Assembly (NCBI GenBank): GCA_031292525.1
Contig: JARLGY010000045.1
Coordinates: 62,001 to 126,000 of the forward strand
Length of the DNA: 64,000 nucleotides
Direction of reading: 5' to 3'
Source of the DNA: Flavipsychrobacter sp.
Lineage (GTDB): Bacteria; Bacteroidota; Bacteroidia; Chitinophagales; Chitinophagaceae
The notes beneath the pieces were generated by a model. That model ran no database searches, had not been told where the DNA came from, and saw only the letters and a list, made by a program, of their open reading frames with translations. The translations under genes and the position numbers were made by a program. Every line of letters starts with the position of its first letter. The stretch's first letter is position 1. Positions 13,047-39,017 of the stretch are shown here, one piece after another.

Positions 13047-13954
13047 TATTTTATATCAGTCACTTCAACATCAAATATCAATACCGAGTTAGCTGATATA
13101 GCAGCCGACGGGCTTTGTTCGCCATAAGCCATAGGTGATGGGATATAAATAGTTCCCTTACCGCCTTTCTTTATCATTGGTATCCCTTTATCCCATCCGG
13201 TAATAACCTGGTGCTTACCTAATACAAATGTAAACGGTGTTACGTGATGGTAATTTGAATCAACGTTTGAATCAAAAACTTTGCCATCCATTGTTTTGCC
13301 TGTATAATTTACAGTTACTGTTTGTCCATCTTTAGGGTTGCCGCCGCTGCCCATTTTACTAATGGTATAATACAGTCCCGATATGGTTTTAGTTGCTTTG
13401 ATATTGTTCTTTGTAAAATATTCAGTAAGTTTTTTATCATCGGCAATTGTTTGCGCCTTACTTTTTTTCTCTGTCTCGGCCTTTACTACTGCCGCAGGTT
13501 TTACAGAGAGCATCGCCACATTATACTCAATTTTTTGCCCCGATTTCATCCACGGTTGTAATTGCGATTGTGTTTTCTTCAATGAGTCAACAGGTATAAG
13601 GAATACTGCACTATCTCCTGCTTTCATCAGCATAAAGCCCTCTACAGGGTCGCCATGGAAGGTGGGTTTTGAAATAGGGAAAGATACAGGCTCATTATTA
13701 TTCAATTTCTTGGAATTAAATAATTCACTGTCTCCTACATGAACATTAATGTTCATGACCACAATATCAGTTGCCTTAGGGCTATTTCCTTTGCCGGGAC
13801 CATGAATTATTTTGTACTCGAGGCCGCTTTTTAATTGGGTAAATCCGCCACCAGCAGTTACAGCTTTTTTAGTACTGGTAGTATTAGCGCTTATGGTCTG
13901 CGCATAAGAAGAATGGAATGCACAAATGCCGAAAATGAATAGTATGGTTCTCAT
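13046..13954 (-). CDS. FKBP-type peptidyl-prolyl isomerase, paralogue 1 of 3
   Basis: A 302-residue exported isomerase. The start chosen is the ATG at 13954, which directly opens a signal peptide (MRTILFIFGICAFHSSYAQ); upstream in-frame codons to 14026 are not signal-like. A degenerate FKBP-like half (HVGDSELFNSKK ... DPVEGFMLMKAGDSAVF) is followed by a canonical FKBP domain (VTVNYTGKTMDGKVFDSN ... VITGWDKGIPMIKKGGKGT ... YIPSPMAYGEQSP). The catalytic pocket residues of the second domain look intact. It is the third of three tandem copies in reading order and is coupled to the M1 peptidase through TAATG. Confidence 0.92.
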   Translation of the reverse strand: MRTILFIFGICAFHSSYAQTISANTTSTKKAVTAGGGFTQLKSGLEYKIIHGPGKGNSPKATDIVVMNINVHVGDSELFNSKKLNNNEPVSFPISKPTFHGDPVEGFMLMKAGDSAVFLIPVDSLKKTQSQLQPWMKSGQKIEYNVAMLSVKPAAVVKAETEKKSKAQTIADDKKLTEYFTKNNIKATKTISGLYYTISKMGSGGNPKDGQTVTVNYTGKTMDGKVFDSNVDSNYHHVTPFTFVLGKHQVITGWDKGIPMIKKGGKGTIYIPSPMAYGEQSPSAAISANSVLIFDVEVTDIK

Positions 13955-14059
13955 CTGGTTATTAAAGTCGATGTTAATTGTCGTCATTGGGTGAGTATAA
14001 ACTAACATGGTATTTGCGTGCTGCAAATACCATGTAGAATCAAGTGTTATTATGTGTGA

Positions 14060-15046
14060 TTACTTTACGTCTGTAACTTCAACGTCAAATACTAATATAC
14101 CATTAGCTGGTATAGAAGGTGCTGGGCTACGCTCACCATATGCCATAGGTGATGGTATGTACAAAGTACCTTTACCACCTTTCTTTATCATTGGTATTCC
14201 TTCGTCCCAACCTTCAATAACCTGGTGCTTACCTAAAGTAAAGGTGAATGGCGTAACGTGGTGGAAGTTTGAATCGATATTAGAGTCAAACGTTTTTCCA
14301 TCCAATGTTTTGCCAGTATAGTTCACAGTTACAGTCTGGCTGCTATGAGGATTTTCTCCAGTACCCTGGATGGCTATGGTGTAATATAGGCCGGAAGCGG
14401 TTTTAGTAGGGGTGATGTGATTTTGAGTAAAGTATTCAGTAAGAATCTTATCATCAACTACCAGCTGTGTTTTTGCATGTTGCTCGGCTTCAGCACGTGC
14501 TACTGCATTCCTTTTTTCATTTTCCACCTTTGCTTCTGCGGCTAGCTTATCAGCTTTAGCTTTGCCTTTTACCGCATCAGTTACACTCACCAGTTTCACA
14601 TCATATTGCAGTTTGTCGCTCATACTGATCCATGGCGGCATATTTTGGCCGGCGCTTTTCAAAGAGTCAACACGTACATAAAACACAGCACTGTCACCAG
14701 CTTTCATCATCATAAATCCCTGTACAGGATCGCTGGTGAAGGTTGGTTTTTGAATAGGGAAATAAACTGGCTTGCCACCATTTACTTTCCTTGAATCAAA
14801 CAGCATACTATCGCCAACATGAACTTTAATATTCATCTCAACATAGTCTCCCAGTTTTGGGCTTACACCCACAGCTGGTGTTTTCTTGATGATCTTGTAT
14901 TCCAGACCGGTTTTGGTACGCTTTATAGCATCACCACTGTTTACTGCTTTTTTTGCAACGGTCTTTTTTGCCTGTGCAAATGATTGCTGAGCAGGAAGAG
15001 TGAAAAGTGATAAGGCAGCTGTGCAAAAAATGAGTGTTTTTTTCAT
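14060..15046 (-). CDS. FKBP-type peptidyl-prolyl isomerase, paralogue 2 of 3
   Basis: A 328-residue paralogue with a cleavable signal peptide (MKKTLIFCTAALSLFTLPAQ). It has the same two-half arrangement: HVGDSMLFDSRKVNGG with DPVQGFMMMKAGDSAVF, then VTVNYTGKTLDGKTFDSN, VIEGWDEGIPMIKKGGKGT and YIPSPMAYGERSP. Between the halves is a charged lysine/alanine/glutamate-rich helix (about 175-200), longer than in the other two copies. It lies 105 bp upstream of paralogue 1 and 37 bp downstream of paralogue 3. Confidence 0.92.
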   Translation of the reverse strand: MKKTLIFCTAALSLFTLPAQQSFAQAKKTVAKKAVNSGDAIKRTKTGLEYKIIKKTPAVGVSPKLGDYVEMNIKVHVGDSMLFDSRKVNGGKPVYFPIQKPTFTSDPVQGFMMMKAGDSAVFYVRVDSLKSAGQNMPPWISMSDKLQYDVKLVSVTDAVKGKAKADKLAAEAKVENEKRNAVARAEAEQHAKTQLVVDDKILTEYFTQNHITPTKTASGLYYTIAIQGTGENPHSSQTVTVNYTGKTLDGKTFDSNIDSNFHHVTPFTFTLGKHQVIEGWDEGIPMIKKGGKGTLYIPSPMAYGERSPAPSIPANGILVFDVEVTDVK

Positions 15047-32809: not shown

Positions 32810-32823
32810 GTGTTGCACAGAGT

Positions 32824-32849
32824 TGCACATGCCAGTAGCGGCATGTGCA
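32824..32849 (-). terminator. Perfect 10-bp hairpin behind the 72-codon gene
   Basis: TGCACATGCC-AGTAGC-GGCATGTGCA lies 25 bp after the stop of the minus-strand 72-codon gene. There is no T-run, so terminator function is only likely. Confidence 0.45.
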
Positions 32850-32874
32850 TTGTAAGTGTGCGAGATGGTTGTGG

Positions 32875-33093
32875 TTAGTTATTTACATCCCTGATCTTGT
32901 TTGCGATGAGCCAGTTGTGGAAGGCGAGCGAATCATCTGGATAATAATGGATGACGGGACCATCTTTAAGGGCAATAATGAAGTAGTGCAGATCTGCAAG
33001 GTAGGCCGATAACTGGCCGGCATGGTATGGGAAGCCGGGGTAGGTGCTGTGTGCTGCCTTATTGTTTTTTCTTCTTCTGAAAAAGAACCACAT
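32875..33093 (-). CDS. Small conserved-looking protein of 72 residues
   Basis: The protein starts MWFFFRRRKNNKAAHSTY and has a compact second half (DLHYFIIALKDGPVIHYYPD, then FHNWLIANKIRD). The sequence has normal amino-acid composition and looks like a folded domain, with a basic N-terminal patch. No family is recognised. An overlapping frame at 32883-33149 is rich in Ser/Thr/Pro and less convincing. It is followed by a perfect hairpin. Confidence 0.55.
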   Translation of the reverse strand: MWFFFRRRKNNKAAHSTYPGFPYHAGQLSAYLADLHYFIIALKDGPVIHYYPDDSLAFHNWLIANKIRDVNN

Positions 33094-33461
33094 ACAAACT
33101 GGTTTAAGTGTGAGTGGCCGGGCATAAAAGAGGCGTGAAACTTAGACACCCCAATCTCAGGTACGTGGATACCCTTCCGGAAATGAATAAGCCCACGCCA
33201 TAACGGCGCGTCTTACATCATTTTTCCGGAACTGAAATTTCCACGTTTCGAGATTAGGAAAAAGCTGAAGAAGCTAAAAATATGTATGTGTCACACTTAA
33301 ATTATACCATGCGCAAATTTTGATTTGGTGTAAAAATACAAATTCAGTTTAATAAAGTAAGAGGGGAATTTGCGGGTTAAGTTTGGAGTGTGGGCTTCCC
33401 CTTCGACAAGCCTGGGATTTCTATTGGCGGATAGCAGAACATCAGCATTAGCATTTCAAAC
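33094..33461. other. Intergenic region with a large palindrome
   Basis: Beyond the palindrome at 33151-33258 the 368 bp are AT-rich. The word CCCCTTCGACAAGCC near 33398-33412 recalls widespread CCTTCGACAAGCTCAGG-type repeats. No coding frame is convincing. Confidence 0.6.
33151..33258. repeat. 108-bp imperfect palindromic element
   Basis: Left arm CCAATCTC..ACGTGG..TTCCGGAAA..GA..TAAG..CGCC pairs with the right arm GGCG..CTTA..TC..TTTCCGGAA..CCACGT..GAGATTAGG, with small bulges, around a loop ATAA near 33202. The whole unit could fold into one long hairpin. Confidence 0.65.
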
Positions 33462-34391
33462 TTATTTATGTACTGGATTCTTCCTTTTTATTGATTTGCG
33501 CATTTGTAATATTGCAAGTGTTAAACTGGCACCTATTAGACCGCCAAGAAGTAAAAGATAAACTGTTACATAAAGCGCAAAGTAAAGTGGTAACTTCTTC
33601 TGTATTAAACCTGAAAAGTAATCAACCAACTGCGTTATATAAAAAACAGCAGCAACAACAGTTGCTCCAGCAATCCACATATTTGCTGACTTCAAACTTT
33701 TTTGGATTTCTCCGGTAGATAAATTGCTTTCTAACAGTCTATCGCTTAAGTCTTGCCTCCTTTGGGCTTTATCTAATTCCGACTGTTCCCAATCAATAAA
33801 TTTTTCATAAGACGAAATGCTAATTAGGCTTTTTCCTCTCTCGTTAAACTCAAAACGAACTTCATCTATCTGTTCGATAAATCCAAATGTGTCAAGAAAG
33901 TTAAATACTCTGTGTAAGCTTCTATTGTCAGATATTCTTACCTGCTCATGGACAGGCAAATCTAACAATGTAGATTTTATTATGTATTGTAGGCTTTTGC
34001 TATTGAACTTTAGGTAAGGTGGAAAATTTTGCAGACAATAATTTAAAAGAATATTGTCTTTTACCCTAGTGGGTAAAATTAGATTTTTTATGGTTTCATT
34101 TTTAATATTATTAGCCGCATTAATGCCCGCTGTCGTTAATGCGTAATATATATTAGCTGTTGTGTCGACTGTTGCATACCCCAGGCGCACTTCTTTTAAT
34201 TCAACAAACCCATCACTGAGCAGGTCGTATAAAAGAAGATGTAGGTCGTCTTTAAAAGTCTGATTGTTGAACTCTAAAATAACGCTTGATAAAAAAGAAA
34301 ATAAATCCGCTATGTTATAACCTTCTTTAGGACTAATTGGGTAGAGTAGCAGAAACCTTAAAATGCACTGCTTTTGCTCATCTTTAGTCAT
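33462..34391 (-). CDS. Hypothetical protein: two winged-helix-like domains plus two membrane segments
   Basis: A 309-residue protein of unknown function. Residues 1-95 look like a winged helix (LLYDLLSDGFVELKE, wing at YYALTTAGINAAN). Residues 105-195 look like a second one (LHRVFNFLDTFGFIEQIDE, then RFEFNERGKSLI). A charged helix (200-235) leads to two hydrophobic segments at about 238-258 and 268-296, with a basic tail. The domain reading is by eye. Base composition is more AT-rich than flanking genes. It is divergent from a gene of the same plan at 34516. Confidence 0.75.
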   Translation of the reverse strand: MTKDEQKQCILRFLLLYPISPKEGYNIADLFSFLSSVILEFNNQTFKDDLHLLLYDLLSDGFVELKEVRLGYATVDTTANIYYALTTAGINAANNIKNETIKNLILPTRVKDNILLNYCLQNFPPYLKFNSKSLQYIIKSTLLDLPVHEQVRISDNRSLHRVFNFLDTFGFIEQIDEVRFEFNERGKSLISISSYEKFIDWEQSELDKAQRRQDLSDRLLESNLSTGEIQKSLKSANMWIAGATVVAAVFYITQLVDYFSGLIQKKLPLYFALYVTVYLLLLGGLIGASLTLAILQMRKSIKRKNPVHK

Positions 34392-34515
34392 AAAATACTT
34401 AATTGTGCAAACGAAAATATAGAAAAAAACATCAACGCGCTATAAGGGGCTCCGTATTACATTTAATTTAGAATATAATCGTAGTATGGTATCTTGGTAA
34501 AAAAATTATAACATC

Positions 34516-35370
34516 ATGAATATTGCACAAAATGAAATATCTCTATTGAATAAACTTTTGCCTTATATATCAGCCAAACAGAAATTTACATTTACAGAGG
34601 TTGCTGAAAAAAATGGTATTGAGTTGCGATTTCCAGATGCCTACGGCTATATGAATCAGTCTATATTAGATGAATTTGAGCCTAATTTGTACAATATACA
34701 AAATATAGATAATTTCCTTATAAATTATGGATATGCAATCAGAGTGGGAGGTTTTCTAGCTGACGAGAATAAAATTTCTGCTATTCTAACATTAACCGAT
34801 ATTGGTGAACAGTTACAAAATGCTGGGAGTTATGAAGCATATATACATCCCTTAACTCAAGAAACAAATCATTTAAAAAGGTTGGATTGGATTCTAGAGT
34901 ATATGTCTGAGTGTGGCACTCACGATTTAAACTTAGAATATATATGGGTAGAAGTTAAAAAGCAATTTAGGACTTTACACATTGAAGGTCGAGAATCGTT
35001 CAGGCAACAGATGTTTGATAAACTTGAAGCAGAAAAATATTTAGTTAGAAATGGAGGAGGGTATCGTATTACATTAAATGGGATCATATTTATTGCTGAT
35101 GGGGGATACCAAAATGCAAAAAAAAATTCTTATGTAAAGGATGAACAAGAAAAAAATTACCGCAACCATACAGAGAGTACATCTGTCCGTCTAAACTTAT
35201 TAACAGCTACTCTGGGGATTGGAACTTTGGCTTTAGCAGTTTCCGAAGGCATGAAAATACATAAGGACGACTACACACATTTCTTTCAATACTTAGGAAG
35301 TGTAGTAGTAATAATTGTGTTAATAATATGGATGATGTTATATAAACGAAAATCAAAGAAAGAAGCTTAA
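34516..35370 (+). CDS. Hypothetical protein: two winged-helix-like domains plus two membrane segments
   Basis: A 284-residue protein of unknown function and the same plan as its divergent neighbour without clear sequence identity. Residues 1-110 end in a wing-like stretch (ISAILTLTDIGEQLQNAG). Residues 118-200 form a second module (FRQQMFDKLEAEKYL, then GGGYRITLNGIIFIADGGYQ), a pattern seen in Bacteroidota accessory proteins. A polar linker precedes membrane segments at about 224-243 and 258-276 and a Lys/Arg-rich tail. No enzymatic motif is visible. The two genes share 124 bp of AT-rich upstream DNA. Confidence 0.75.
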   Translation: MNIAQNEISLLNKLLPYISAKQKFTFTEVAEKNGIELRFPDAYGYMNQSILDEFEPNLYNIQNIDNFLINYGYAIRVGGFLADENKISAILTLTDIGEQLQNAGSYEAYIHPLTQETNHLKRLDWILEYMSECGTHDLNLEYIWVEVKKQFRTLHIEGRESFRQQMFDKLEAEKYLVRNGGGYRITLNGIIFIADGGYQNAKKNSYVKDEQEKNYRNHTESTSVRLNLLTATLGIGTLALAVSEGMKIHKDDYTHFFQYLGSVVVIIVLIIWMMLYKRKSKKEA

Positions 35371-35871
35371 TTGTACGTTGCCAATCAACATTAGACCTCC
35401 GATGTTCCAGATGTTCTGAAAGGCATCTGGAATCGCCAATAAGCTTCCGTTTTGTAAACGGCATTCAAGATATTGAGCTGAATAGCTGTGATGTTGTCTG
35501 GAATTTATTTTCAATTTTTCTTGCCTCTGCTCGGCATAGTCTTATTTTTTACTACGCCATAACCCGGCAGGCAAATCTCAGATTTGCGTTTTTCCGGCCA
35601 TTATAATATAATTCAATCTGCTTTATACCGCCGTGAAACATCTCCGCTCGTGGAACTGTGGATATTATCTTTTGTCCACAATATCCGCTCATTGTACCTT
35701 ACATCCGTTAACGTGAGCATGTAGTCCGATAACATTGAGCTGCAAACAATAAAATTATTTTTACGCCAGCATATTGAGGTAGTTCTTTATAACTGTATCA
35801 GACATTTTTTTCTGATCAAAACGGACATTTTCTCCAAAAACCGCCACTGCAAAGCTTTTCCGTCGAAACAC

Positions 35872-35905
35872 AAAATGTCCAGAGACGGACATTTCTGGAC
35901 ATTTT
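35872..35905. repeat. Inverted repeat AAAATGTCCAG/CTGGACATTTT
   Basis: A perfect 11-bp stem with a 12-nt loop that itself contains CGGACA. Confidence 0.65.
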
Positions 35906-35972
35906 AGGTGTTTTAATTTTTTTGTGTACCATAATCACTTCATAAAAAATCAATAATTTATAGCCGGACAGA

Positions 35973-35986
35973 GTCCGGTACCGGAC
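35973..35986. promoter_or_regulatory. Perfect 14-bp palindrome, possible operator
   Basis: GTCCGGTACCGGAC is flanked by CCGGACAGA on the left and CACAAACCGGACACC on the right, so three near-identical half-sites lie within 40 bp. Operator function is inferred only from the symmetry. Confidence 0.4.
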
Positions 35987-36196
35987 ACAAACCGGACACC
36001 ACCAGACAGTTGAAAATTAATGCATATCAGCCACCAGAAAAGTTTTTAGCGTATTCTAAGTACTATACCTGTCCGGTTTCGTTTATTTTGTCCGCTAGAC
36101 AGGACAGGTAGACAGAAAACCATATCACAATATAAACCCAACTTATATTGGCTGGTCAAAACCGCTGCAACCCTTTTAATTAGCAGTTTTTTGCTG

Positions 36197-36275: not shown

Positions 36276-39017
36276 ATGGAAGATTTCTCATTCGTAATGG
36301 GCCCAACGCCCGCCTTTATTGAATCCCTGTACAACGATTTTGTAAAAGATTCAACAGTAGTGGATCCTGAGTGGAGGATGTTTTTTGAGGGTTTTGATTT
36401 TGCCCTTGCCAAGAATAACGGTAACGGCGCCGGCGATGCTAAAGCGGTAGTTACGGGCAGCCAGCTGACCAAGGAGTTCCAGGTATATACCCTGATAAGG
36501 GCGTACCGCAAGCGTGGCCACCTGGTAGCCACCACCAACCCCATTCGCCACCGTAAGGACCGTAAGGCGCAGCTTGCCCTTACTGATGTAGGCCTGGCAG
36601 ATACCGACTTGAACATGCAATTTGCAGCAGGCAGCTTTATAGGCCTGCCCAATGCCAAGCTGAGCGAGATAGTAGCCAAGCTACAAAAAATATATACCGG
36701 CAATGTAGGTGCAGAGTTTACCTACATAAACGATAGCGACAAGTGCAACTGGGTGAAAGATGCATTTGAAGCGATGATGCTAAAAACACTGACCCTGCCG
36801 CAGAAGACCAGGATACTGGAAAAGCTGAACGAGGGTGTGATATTTGAAAAATTCCTGAGTACAAAATATATAGGCCAAAAGCGTTTTGGACTGGAAGGTG
36901 GCGAAAGTACCATACCGGCGCTGGATACGATAATAAATGAAGCCGGCGATGCAGGTGTGCAGGAAGTGGTAATAGGCATGGCACACCGCGGCCGCCTGAA
37001 CATACTGGCCAATACCCTGAAGAAAACCTACGAACAGATTTTCAGCGAGTTTGAGGGCAATATGCCAACTGATACTACCATGGGCAGCGGTGATGTAAAA
37101 TATCACCTGGGCTTTAACAGCAACATCAACACGCCTAACGGCAAGGTGGTGAATGTGCAGCTGACCCCTAACCCGAGTCACCTGGAAGCCGTGAACCCCG
37201 TGGTGGAAGGTTTTGCACGTGCAAAGGCTGATGCTTTGTACAACAGGGAATACCACAAGGTATTGCCTATACTGATACATGGCGATGCCGCTGTGGCAGG
37301 GCAGGGTATTACTTACGAGCTGCTGCAGATGAGCAAGCTGGCAGGCTACTACACAGGTGGTACTATCCACTTTGTGATCAACAACCAGATAGGTTTTACT
37401 ACCGACTTTGACGACGCACGCAGCGCAGACTATTGTACAAGTATAGCATCGATGGTGCAGGCGCCGGTATTGCACGTAAACGGTGATGATGCCGAGGCTG
37501 TGGTAAATGCATGCTCATTGGCTGTAGCTTACAGGCAGAAGTATAATGAAGATATTTTCATAGACATGGTGTGCTACCGTAAGAACGGGCACAACGAGGG
37601 CGATGAACCAAAGTTTACCCAGCCGCAGTTGTATGCGCTGATAGACAAGCATCCTAATCCGCGCGAAGTATATACCCAATACCTGCTGCAACATGGCGAA
37701 GCCGATGCACAGGAACTGGCCAAGAGCATGGAGACCCGTTTCTGGGCCGACCTGCAACAGCGCCTGGACGAGGTGAAACAAAAGCCCCTGCCTTACGAAT
37801 ACCAGGCTCCTGAGCTGGAATGGCAAAAACTGCGCAAGGCAAAACCTGAAGATTTTGACCAGAGCCCGGATACGTTTATCAGCGAAGCTGATTTTAAAGA
37901 ATTATTTAACGCGCTGATGAAGTGGCCCGAAGGGTTTACTCCGCTGCGTAAGGTGGCCAAGTTGCTGCAAGACAAAATAAAGCTGTTTGAAACAGAAGGC
38001 AAGGCCGACTGGGCAACCGGTGAGCTGCTTGCATACGCCAGCCTGCTGATAGAAAACAACAGTGTGCGCCTGAGTGGTGAGGACGTGAAACGCGGTACCT
38101 TCAGCCATCGCCACGCCGTTATATATGATGAGAACACCAACACCCCGTACAATCGTCTGAGCCAACTGCGCGACAAGCAGGGGATAATGAATATATACAA
38201 TAGCCTGTTGAGTGAGTTTGCAGTAATGGGTTTTGAGTATGGATACGCAATGGCTAATCCTAACAACCTGGTACTGTGGGAAGCTCAATATGGCGATTTC
38301 GCTAATGGTGCGCAAACCATTATAGATCAATATATTAGCAGCGCAGAGCAGAAGTGGACCAACATGAATGGCCTGGTGCTGTTGCTGCCTCATGGTTACG
38401 AAGGTGGTGGTCCGGAACACAGCAGTGCGCGTATGGAACGCTTCCTGCAAATGTGTGCTGAGCTGAACATGGTAGTAACCAATATTACCACATCGGCTAA
38501 CTTCTTCCACGGGCTGCGCAGGCAGCTGGCATGGCAGTTCCGCAAGCCTATGATCAACTTCTCGCCTAAGGCTAACCTGCGCCATGTACGCTCTTACAGT
38601 GCCATGAGTGAGTTTACACAGGGTGGCTTTAAGGAAGTGCTGGACGACCCGATGATCACCGATGCCAAGAAGGTGAAACGTGTATTGCTGTGCAGCGGTA
38701 AAATGTACTTCGACCTGAGCGAAAAACAAATAACCGATAAGATAACCGACACCGCAATAGTGCGCCTGGAACAGATATACCCATTACCAATGAAACAACT
38801 GAACGAGCTGAAAGCCAAGTACGGCAAGGCTGAGTGGTTATGGGTGCAGGAAGAACCGCGCAACATGGGTGCCGCGAGCTTCCTCATCATGAACATGCCT
38901 GAAGACTTTAAGATTGCTTACAAGAGCCGCCCGGCCAGCGCATCTACAGCTACCGGCTTCTCTAAGAAACATACCATAGAGCAAAATGAGCTAGTGAACA
39001 GCGCATTTGCGAAATAG
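36276..39017 (+). CDS. sucA: 2-oxoglutarate dehydrogenase E1 component
   Basis: A 913-residue thiamine-diphosphate enzyme that decarboxylates 2-oxoglutarate in the TCA cycle. Family features are the N-terminal FIESLYNDFVKDSTVVDPEW (peripheral E2-binding), MAHRGRLNILANTLKK, HGDAAVAGQGITYE, the TPP-motif region YRKNGHNEGDEPKFTQP, and LPHGYEGGGPEHSSARMERF in the C-terminal half. Full length. The E2 gene (sucB) usually follows sucA, but here a strong terminator and an unrelated convergent gene follow, so E2 must be encoded elsewhere. Confidence 0.97.
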   Translation: MEDFSFVMGPTPAFIESLYNDFVKDSTVVDPEWRMFFEGFDFALAKNNGNGAGDAKAVVTGSQLTKEFQVYTLIRAYRKRGHLVATTNPIRHRKDRKAQLALTDVGLADTDLNMQFAAGSFIGLPNAKLSEIVAKLQKIYTGNVGAEFTYINDSDKCNWVKDAFEAMMLKTLTLPQKTRILEKLNEGVIFEKFLSTKYIGQKRFGLEGGESTIPALDTIINEAGDAGVQEVVIGMAHRGRLNILANTLKKTYEQIFSEFEGNMPTDTTMGSGDVKYHLGFNSNINTPNGKVVNVQLTPNPSHLEAVNPVVEGFARAKADALYNREYHKVLPILIHGDAAVAGQGITYELLQMSKLAGYYTGGTIHFVINNQIGFTTDFDDARSADYCTSIASMVQAPVLHVNGDDAEAVVNACSLAVAYRQKYNEDIFIDMVCYRKNGHNEGDEPKFTQPQLYALIDKHPNPREVYTQYLLQHGEADAQELAKSMETRFWADLQQRLDEVKQKPLPYEYQAPELEWQKLRKAKPEDFDQSPDTFISEADFKELFNALMKWPEGFTPLRKVAKLLQDKIKLFETEGKADWATGELLAYASLLIENNSVRLSGEDVKRGTFSHRHAVIYDENTNTPYNRLSQLRDKQGIMNIYNSLLSEFAVMGFEYGYAMANPNNLVLWEAQYGDFANGAQTIIDQYISSAEQKWTNMNGLVLLLPHGYEGGGPEHSSARMERFLQMCAELNMVVTNITTSANFFHGLRRQLAWQFRKPMINFSPKANLRHVRSYSAMSEFTQGGFKEVLDDPMITDAKKVKRVLLCSGKMYFDLSEKQITDKITDTAIVRLEQIYPLPMKQLNELKAKYGKAEWLWVQEEPRNMGAASFLIMNMPEDFKIAYKSRPASASTATGFSKKHTIEQNELVNSAFAK

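Follow-up and report, generated by a model that had tools for sequence, protein, structure and literature searches.

The window that we analysed is a stretch of 64,000 nt from Flavipsychrobacter sp. (assembly GCA_031292525.1, contig JARLGY010000045.1, positions 62,001 to 126,000 of the forward strand). Two genes, P0001 and P0002, lie back to back in it (Table 1), and the description in the original prediction, divergent ORFs 124 bp apart and AT-rich, is borne out by the ORF coordinates and the GC contents. At 0.340 and 0.322, the GC contents of P0001 and P0002 are the two lowest among the 43 window ORFs that reach 150 aa, for which the median is 0.419. Both are real genes; homologues at about 30% identity retain the length and architecture of each one, which is beyond what chance would give. 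The AT-rich divergent promoter region fits a coordinated, possibly self-controlled, expression of the two, and promoter signals in the 124-bp gap showed no excess over shuffled sequence.

Table 1. Features of the gene pair and its surroundings (positions in the window)
Feature	Position	Strand	Basis or remark
P0001, 309 aa, type A	33462..34391	-	ORF; homologue P0003, 30% over residues 7-298
Layout of P0001 (type A)			predicted winged-helix module(s), charged linker, C-terminal helical hairpin, basic tail
P0001 first winged-helix module (likely), residues 3-94	34110..34385	-	AlphaFold model and Foldseek, low to moderate confidence
P0001 second winged-helix module (likely), recognition helix and wing, about residues 155-188	33828..33929	-	HTH_45/Sso10a matches in the aligned P0003
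P0001 hydrophobic segments, residues 238-256 and 277-295	33507..33680	-	hydropathy
Divergent intergenic region, 124 bp, GC 0.274	34392..34515	.	between P0001 and P0002
P0002, 284 aa, type B	34516..35370	+	ORF; homologue P0005, 34%
Layout of P0002 (type B)			winged-helix-like module(s), linker, C-terminal hairpin, basic tail
P0002 hydrophobic segments, residues 224-242 (weak, 1.59) and 257-275 (strong)	35185..35340	+	hydropathy
Marker gene P0016, 72 aa	32875..33093	-	upstream side toward the cargo; the genome has 13 copies
Left flank repeat (marker gene with the sequence upstream of it)	32810..33460	.	87% identity at C14:328-971, 91% in G063
21-bp edge motif CATCAGCAYTAGCRTTTCAAA	33440..33460	+	cargo border; also at L054 951-971, L110 6677-6697 and twice in L037
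REP-like repeat, two short inverted repeats	35400..35523	.	right cargo border
Dispersed intergenic repeat, after the REP-like repeat	35615..36101	.	also at C14:4790-5273, 76%

The hydropathy profiles confirmed the C-terminal hydrophobic segments expected in each protein, one of those in P0002 being weak, and a basic tail forms the C-terminal end of both. By the positive-inside rule, both termini of each protein would be cytosolic and the loop between the two helices short.

Two winged-helix modules had also been proposed for each protein. Structure prediction and a fold search, among the checks suggested at the time, were informative for P0001 and not for P0002. The AlphaFold model of P0001, made from a two-sequence alignment, was poor overall (pLDDT 51), and in this low-confidence model residues 3-94 follow the helix-helix-helix-strand-strand-helix order of a winged helix. 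The best PDB matches of this module in Foldseek were SSV1 F-93, MarR, PadR and histone H1 proteins, with probabilities near 1 but E values no better than 0.03. Support for the second module came through relatives: Pfam HTH_45 gave weak matches, at 8.6e-4 with the P0001 homologue P0003 and at 0.002 with the relative P0011, and the Sso10a family weakly matched P0003 (3.5e-4). The model of P0002 was too poor to use (pLDDT 42), and a PDB search with the profile of its subtype returned PadR-like chains only, at weak scores (E 0.3-1); the PDB sequence search for type A matched mainly designed helical proteins. Based on the Foldseek, HTH_45, Sso10a and PadR matches, P0001 is likely to contain winged helices, and one is plausible in the second module of P0002. 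In the first module of P0002 a winged helix is putative.

The two proteins were said to share a plan and little sequence identity, and this proved accurate. BLASTP found no direct similarity between P0001 and P0002, and profile searches related them. A profile made from subtype B members only (P0002, P0004, P0005, P0008, P0009, P0013 and P0014) and run against 1475 ORFs found P0001 at 2.3e-10 and P0003 at 8.5e-10, and a profile of subtype A (P0001, P0003, P0007, P0011 and P0012) recovered B members at 3e-7. The alignment of A with B by hhalign scored 97% (E 9e-11; reversed control, 0.12). A large share of this signal came from the linker and the membrane part, and without the membrane part it was modest (E 0.0018, versus at least 0.54 for shuffles). 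On the profile and hhalign scores, the second module, linker and hairpin of the two types are most likely common by descent. Judged from these sequence comparisons, P0001 and P0002 belong to a single family of narrow distribution, as its divergent subtypes A and B.

Among 296 genomes of the bacterial family, P0001 had a single full-length homologue, P0003 in a same-genus MAG (G063), and P0002 a single good one, P0005 in genome G043. Since these homologues sit in different genomes, P0001 and P0002 were not co-inherited as orthologues. The co-occurrence that the original prediction looked for was therefore found in part: the genes do not travel jointly as orthologues, but P0003 again adjoins a membrane-anchored protein of the P0002 subtype, in another place and orientation. 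This partner, P0004, is convergent with P0003 at a distance of 24 bp, at a locus other than that of the window pair. A pairing of A with B was seen in these two genomes, of one genus only, and the majority of relatives are single genes. The weaker matches (P0007-P0009 and P0011-P0014) are short ORFs of the same plan, in which a charged linker joins a winged-helix-like module to one or two hydrophobic segments; two further relatives, P0012 and the gene at L037:13607-14068, lie in the source genome itself. A wider search of Bacteroidota with five-sequence core profiles gave few matches, and its loose first pass may overlook distant relatives. Neither protein had a match above cut-off in Pfam, NCBIfam or PADLOC, or any match in PADLOC-DB 2.0.0 at E 10 or better, and a search of the open-access literature found no description of families of this type. 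A prophage or plasmid origin was considered and rejected, as no relatives were found in IMG/VR, in phage records (P0002) or on plasmids (P0001, P0014).

Several neighbours of the relatives were noted. An Hsp20-like gene lies immediately 5' of the type A relative P0012 (both within L037 9271-10324, forward strand), and G063 has about 0.2 kb in place of the 1.6-kb stretch with these two genes. The type B relative P0014 is separated by 3 bp from P0015, a protein of 248 aa with no family match, apparently in one operon (L033 8914-10158, forward strand). IS1595-type transposases occur near four of the relatives (loci L017, L032, L033 and L034). An origin of the window pair as an IS1595 passenger was rejected, with no transposase in the window and no convincing terminal repeats around the units at three loci.

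The expectation that repeat elements bracket the pair and that it is accessory in character held up. Copies of the flanks were found around other cargo. A second islet on the same contig, C14:328-5273 (L054), has the left flank, the REP-like repeat and the further repeat in identical order and orientation, at identities to the window of 87%, 90-95% and 76%, respectively. The left-flank match stops at window base 33460, beside the stop codon of P0001. In place of the pair, the C14 islet carries two overlapping genes (L054 1223-3209, forward strand), for an 8-TM protein with no Pfam family and for an Ntox23-domain protein (5e-15), and the stop codon of the latter gene is 10 bp ahead of the REP-like repeat. 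Constant borders with different cargo were seen both at this paralogous site and at orthologous sites in G063. The simplest reading of the C14 alignment is that cargo has been swapped as a unit between flanks of one kind.

The 21-bp motif marks the left edge in the window, in C14 and in G063, and occurs twice in tandem in L037, each copy 5' of an accessory gene. In L037 (14303-15581), each of the tandem motifs is followed by the hairpin CCGGTCGGGAGACCGG and they flank a 337-aa orphan ORF; this region precedes the membrane-anchored winged-helix gene at 13607-14068. In the C14 islet, a gene that by eye encodes a REP-associated-type transposase (L054 4043-4573, forward strand) lies between copies of the window REP-like repeat. 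Rfam gave no RNA element match in the flanks. The repeats and the pair occupy the site upstream of sucA at window position 36276. In 10 of 21 more distant relatives, a divergent gene identified by eye as that of ribosomal protein S20 lies close upstream of sucA, and no S20 gene was present within 1.5 kb upstream of the window sucA. A search for the orthologous site in G063 by way of sucA gave no match in that incomplete genome.

The left flank contains a small gene, P0016, here called the marker gene. P0016 has no known family match, is under strong purifying selection (median dN/dS about 0.07) and has family members in 38 of the 296 genomes, with at most 10 copies per genome outside the source genome. 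The genes upstream of its copies vary, and often a divergent XRE gene comes first and the cargo after it; the window islet is unlike most in that it has no XRE gene, and the A and B pair of G063 is not adjacent to a marker gene. In the source genome the cargo includes a dCTP deaminase (2e-156), a PDC-M62A/PtuA-like (Septu-like) AAA protein (4e-40), an HD-CE/HATPase protein (UG24-like, 1e-15), a TIR-like protein (1e-7), an AAA_35-TPR protein and a REase_II-like protein (2e-20). In other genomes it includes PDC-S73, PDC-S36, PD-T4-4-like and type II restriction or methylase genes. Some islets hold ordinary genes as cargo.

Comparison of the source genome with G063 showed that the marker is retained at orthologous chromosomal sites and that the cargo there is unrelated, which shows directly that cargo is exchanged at sites of the marker. 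At the C5 site, homology to G063 ends at the marker start codon and is back 2.7-3 kb on; at the C65 site it ends at the XRE stop codon; and at the C19 site about 250 bp around the marker is common to both genomes, between longer homologous stretches. Genome-wide statistics were taken over individually retrieved loci. As a blind control, the largest ORF within 3.5 kb on each side of the marker, provided that it reached 120 aa, was compared with PADLOC at a cut-off of 1e-10, using a random 20 of the 32 eligible sites of other genomes together with the own-genome sites minus the window site. Matches were obtained for 11 of 31 upstream and 4 of 28 downstream ORFs (one-sided Fisher p 0.057), and one of the four downstream matches was a UvrD-like helicase, probably with a housekeeping role. 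The upstream excess of PADLOC matches at P0016 sites is no more than suggestive, a trend in keeping with the defence reading.

The pair is a candidate for an accessory module of a kind not described before, possibly one for defence, since it is exchangeable cargo beside a marker that elsewhere adjoins known or suspected anti-virus genes. The explanation that we tentatively prefer for the whole, while giving it less than an even chance, is an exchangeable two-protein module of membrane-anchored winged-helix proteins that responds to phage or stress and acts through its hairpins. The sequence comparisons establish where the pair sits, as two genes of cargo in a small accessory islet, that such cargo is exchangeable and how the family is structured. 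In this proposal the C-terminal helical hairpin would fix each protein in the inner membrane with the winged-helix modules in the cytoplasm, where they might sense a nucleic acid or a partner protein close to the membrane; both proteins would then act jointly through their hairpins to perturb the membrane, and growth would stop or the invader would be blocked. The family link of A and B, the second pair in G063, the different cargo between like flanks, the defence-type neighbours of the marker gene, the exchange at orthologous sites and the low GC speak for this explanation. Against it stand the PADLOC comparison, which is no more than suggestive, the ordinary genes in some islets, the lack of an XRE gene in the window islet, the position of the G063 pair away from a marker gene, the prevalence of single genes among the relatives, the modest similarity of A and B outside the membrane part and the lack of a PADLOC match for either protein. 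An anti-phage role is plausible on these grounds, again at somewhat less than even chance. We put forward with more reserve the specific claim that A and B form an undescribed two-protein anti-phage module, the precisely exchangeable cargo of dispersed Bacteroidota islets that are bordered by a conserved 70-aa gene of the P0016 family.

Known systems resemble the pair in single aspects. The first module of P0001 is predicted to fold like the PadR/MarR and SSV1 F-93 winged-helix proteins, and PadR and HTH_45 profiles weakly match relatives of the pair with no family cut-off reached. Those proteins are soluble, however, while the pair would join one or two modules to a charged linker and a membrane hairpin. 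CadC/ToxR-type regulators have a cytosolic OmpR-type winged helix, a single TM segment and then a periplasmic sensor domain. Like them, the pair would have a cytosolic winged helix and a membrane segment on one chain, but it has no periplasmic sensor domain, and two hydrophobic segments with a short loop stand in place of one. Neither P0001 nor P0002 had an OmpR-type winged-helix match in Pfam, and just the short basic tail follows the two C-terminal hydrophobic segments. In bacterial conflict systems, SLATT and other two-TM proteins contain a small membrane module of two helices that is presumed to be the effector (PMC7159879). The pair resembles them in having such a module, but would have winged helices rather than a nucleotide-signal partner, and no SLATT match was found in P0001 or P0002 with Pfam. 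HAAS-PadR dyads, which act in envelope stress, are two genes that link PadR-like winged helices to the membrane (PMC11237479). There PadR is separate from the membrane protein, whereas in the pair each protein would have both parts; a HAAS domain was not found in the pair. Core defence hotspots, for example in Pseudomonas aeruginosa, are reported to have conserved borders and defence-type cargo that varies by strain (PMC10250203), an arrangement that the P0016 islets resemble. The Bacteroidota border differs in being a small conserved gene with many dispersed copies, accompanied by repeats.

The strongest alternative, which we nevertheless consider unlikely, is that P0001 and P0002 are membrane-tethered one-component regulators, whose winged helices bind the 124-bp gap and perhaps distant promoters and whose hairpin senses the state of the membrane, as a switch and not as an effector. 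The likeness of the winged helices to the PadR, MarR and F-93 DNA binders, the divergent genes with their AT-rich gap, and the position of the related P0012 directly downstream of an Hsp20-like gene would all suit such a role. Against it, the islet contains no other gene to regulate and the same hairpin is present on both proteins. In addition, the A and B genes of G063 are convergent, so a common divergent promoter is not conserved. A phage- or stress-responsive accessory system is more likely than a chromosomal regulator.

We consider it improbable that the two genes are selfish or decaying passengers, fast-evolving accessory ORFs on mobile elements that bring the cell no benefit. Their narrow distribution, the REP-like repeats that border them and the IS1595-type transposases, adjacent to P0003 and P0013 and a few kb at most from P0008 and P0014, could be read in this way, but the window contains no IS1595 copy and the rest of the genome a single one, full-length frames and architecture are intact in relatives at 30% identity, and the pairing of A with B recurs. 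Slightly less probable again is a toxin and inhibitor (addiction) pair, in which one of the membrane proteins acts as a toxin by means of its hairpin and the partner restrains it: adjacent proteins with related hairpins occur in two genomes of the genus and the location is exchangeable, as for the Ntox23-domain cargo, but each gene has its own side of a divergent promoter region instead of a place in a single operon, relatives are mostly single genes and no toxin-antitoxin model matched.

If the preferred reading of an accessory membrane-anchored module is right, the combination of winged helix and membrane anchor would be a new architecture among bacterial accessory, probably defence, modules, and a small conserved gene would flag the swap sites of defence-type cargo across a Bacteroidota family. 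The P0016 family could then serve as bait for new defence cargo in a poorly sampled group. Four further islets, L123, L120, L131 and L134, hold SIR2-like, methylase, Vsr/C5-methylase and small multi-TM genes, as identified by eye with the methylase confirmed, and may be carriers of undescribed defence cargo.
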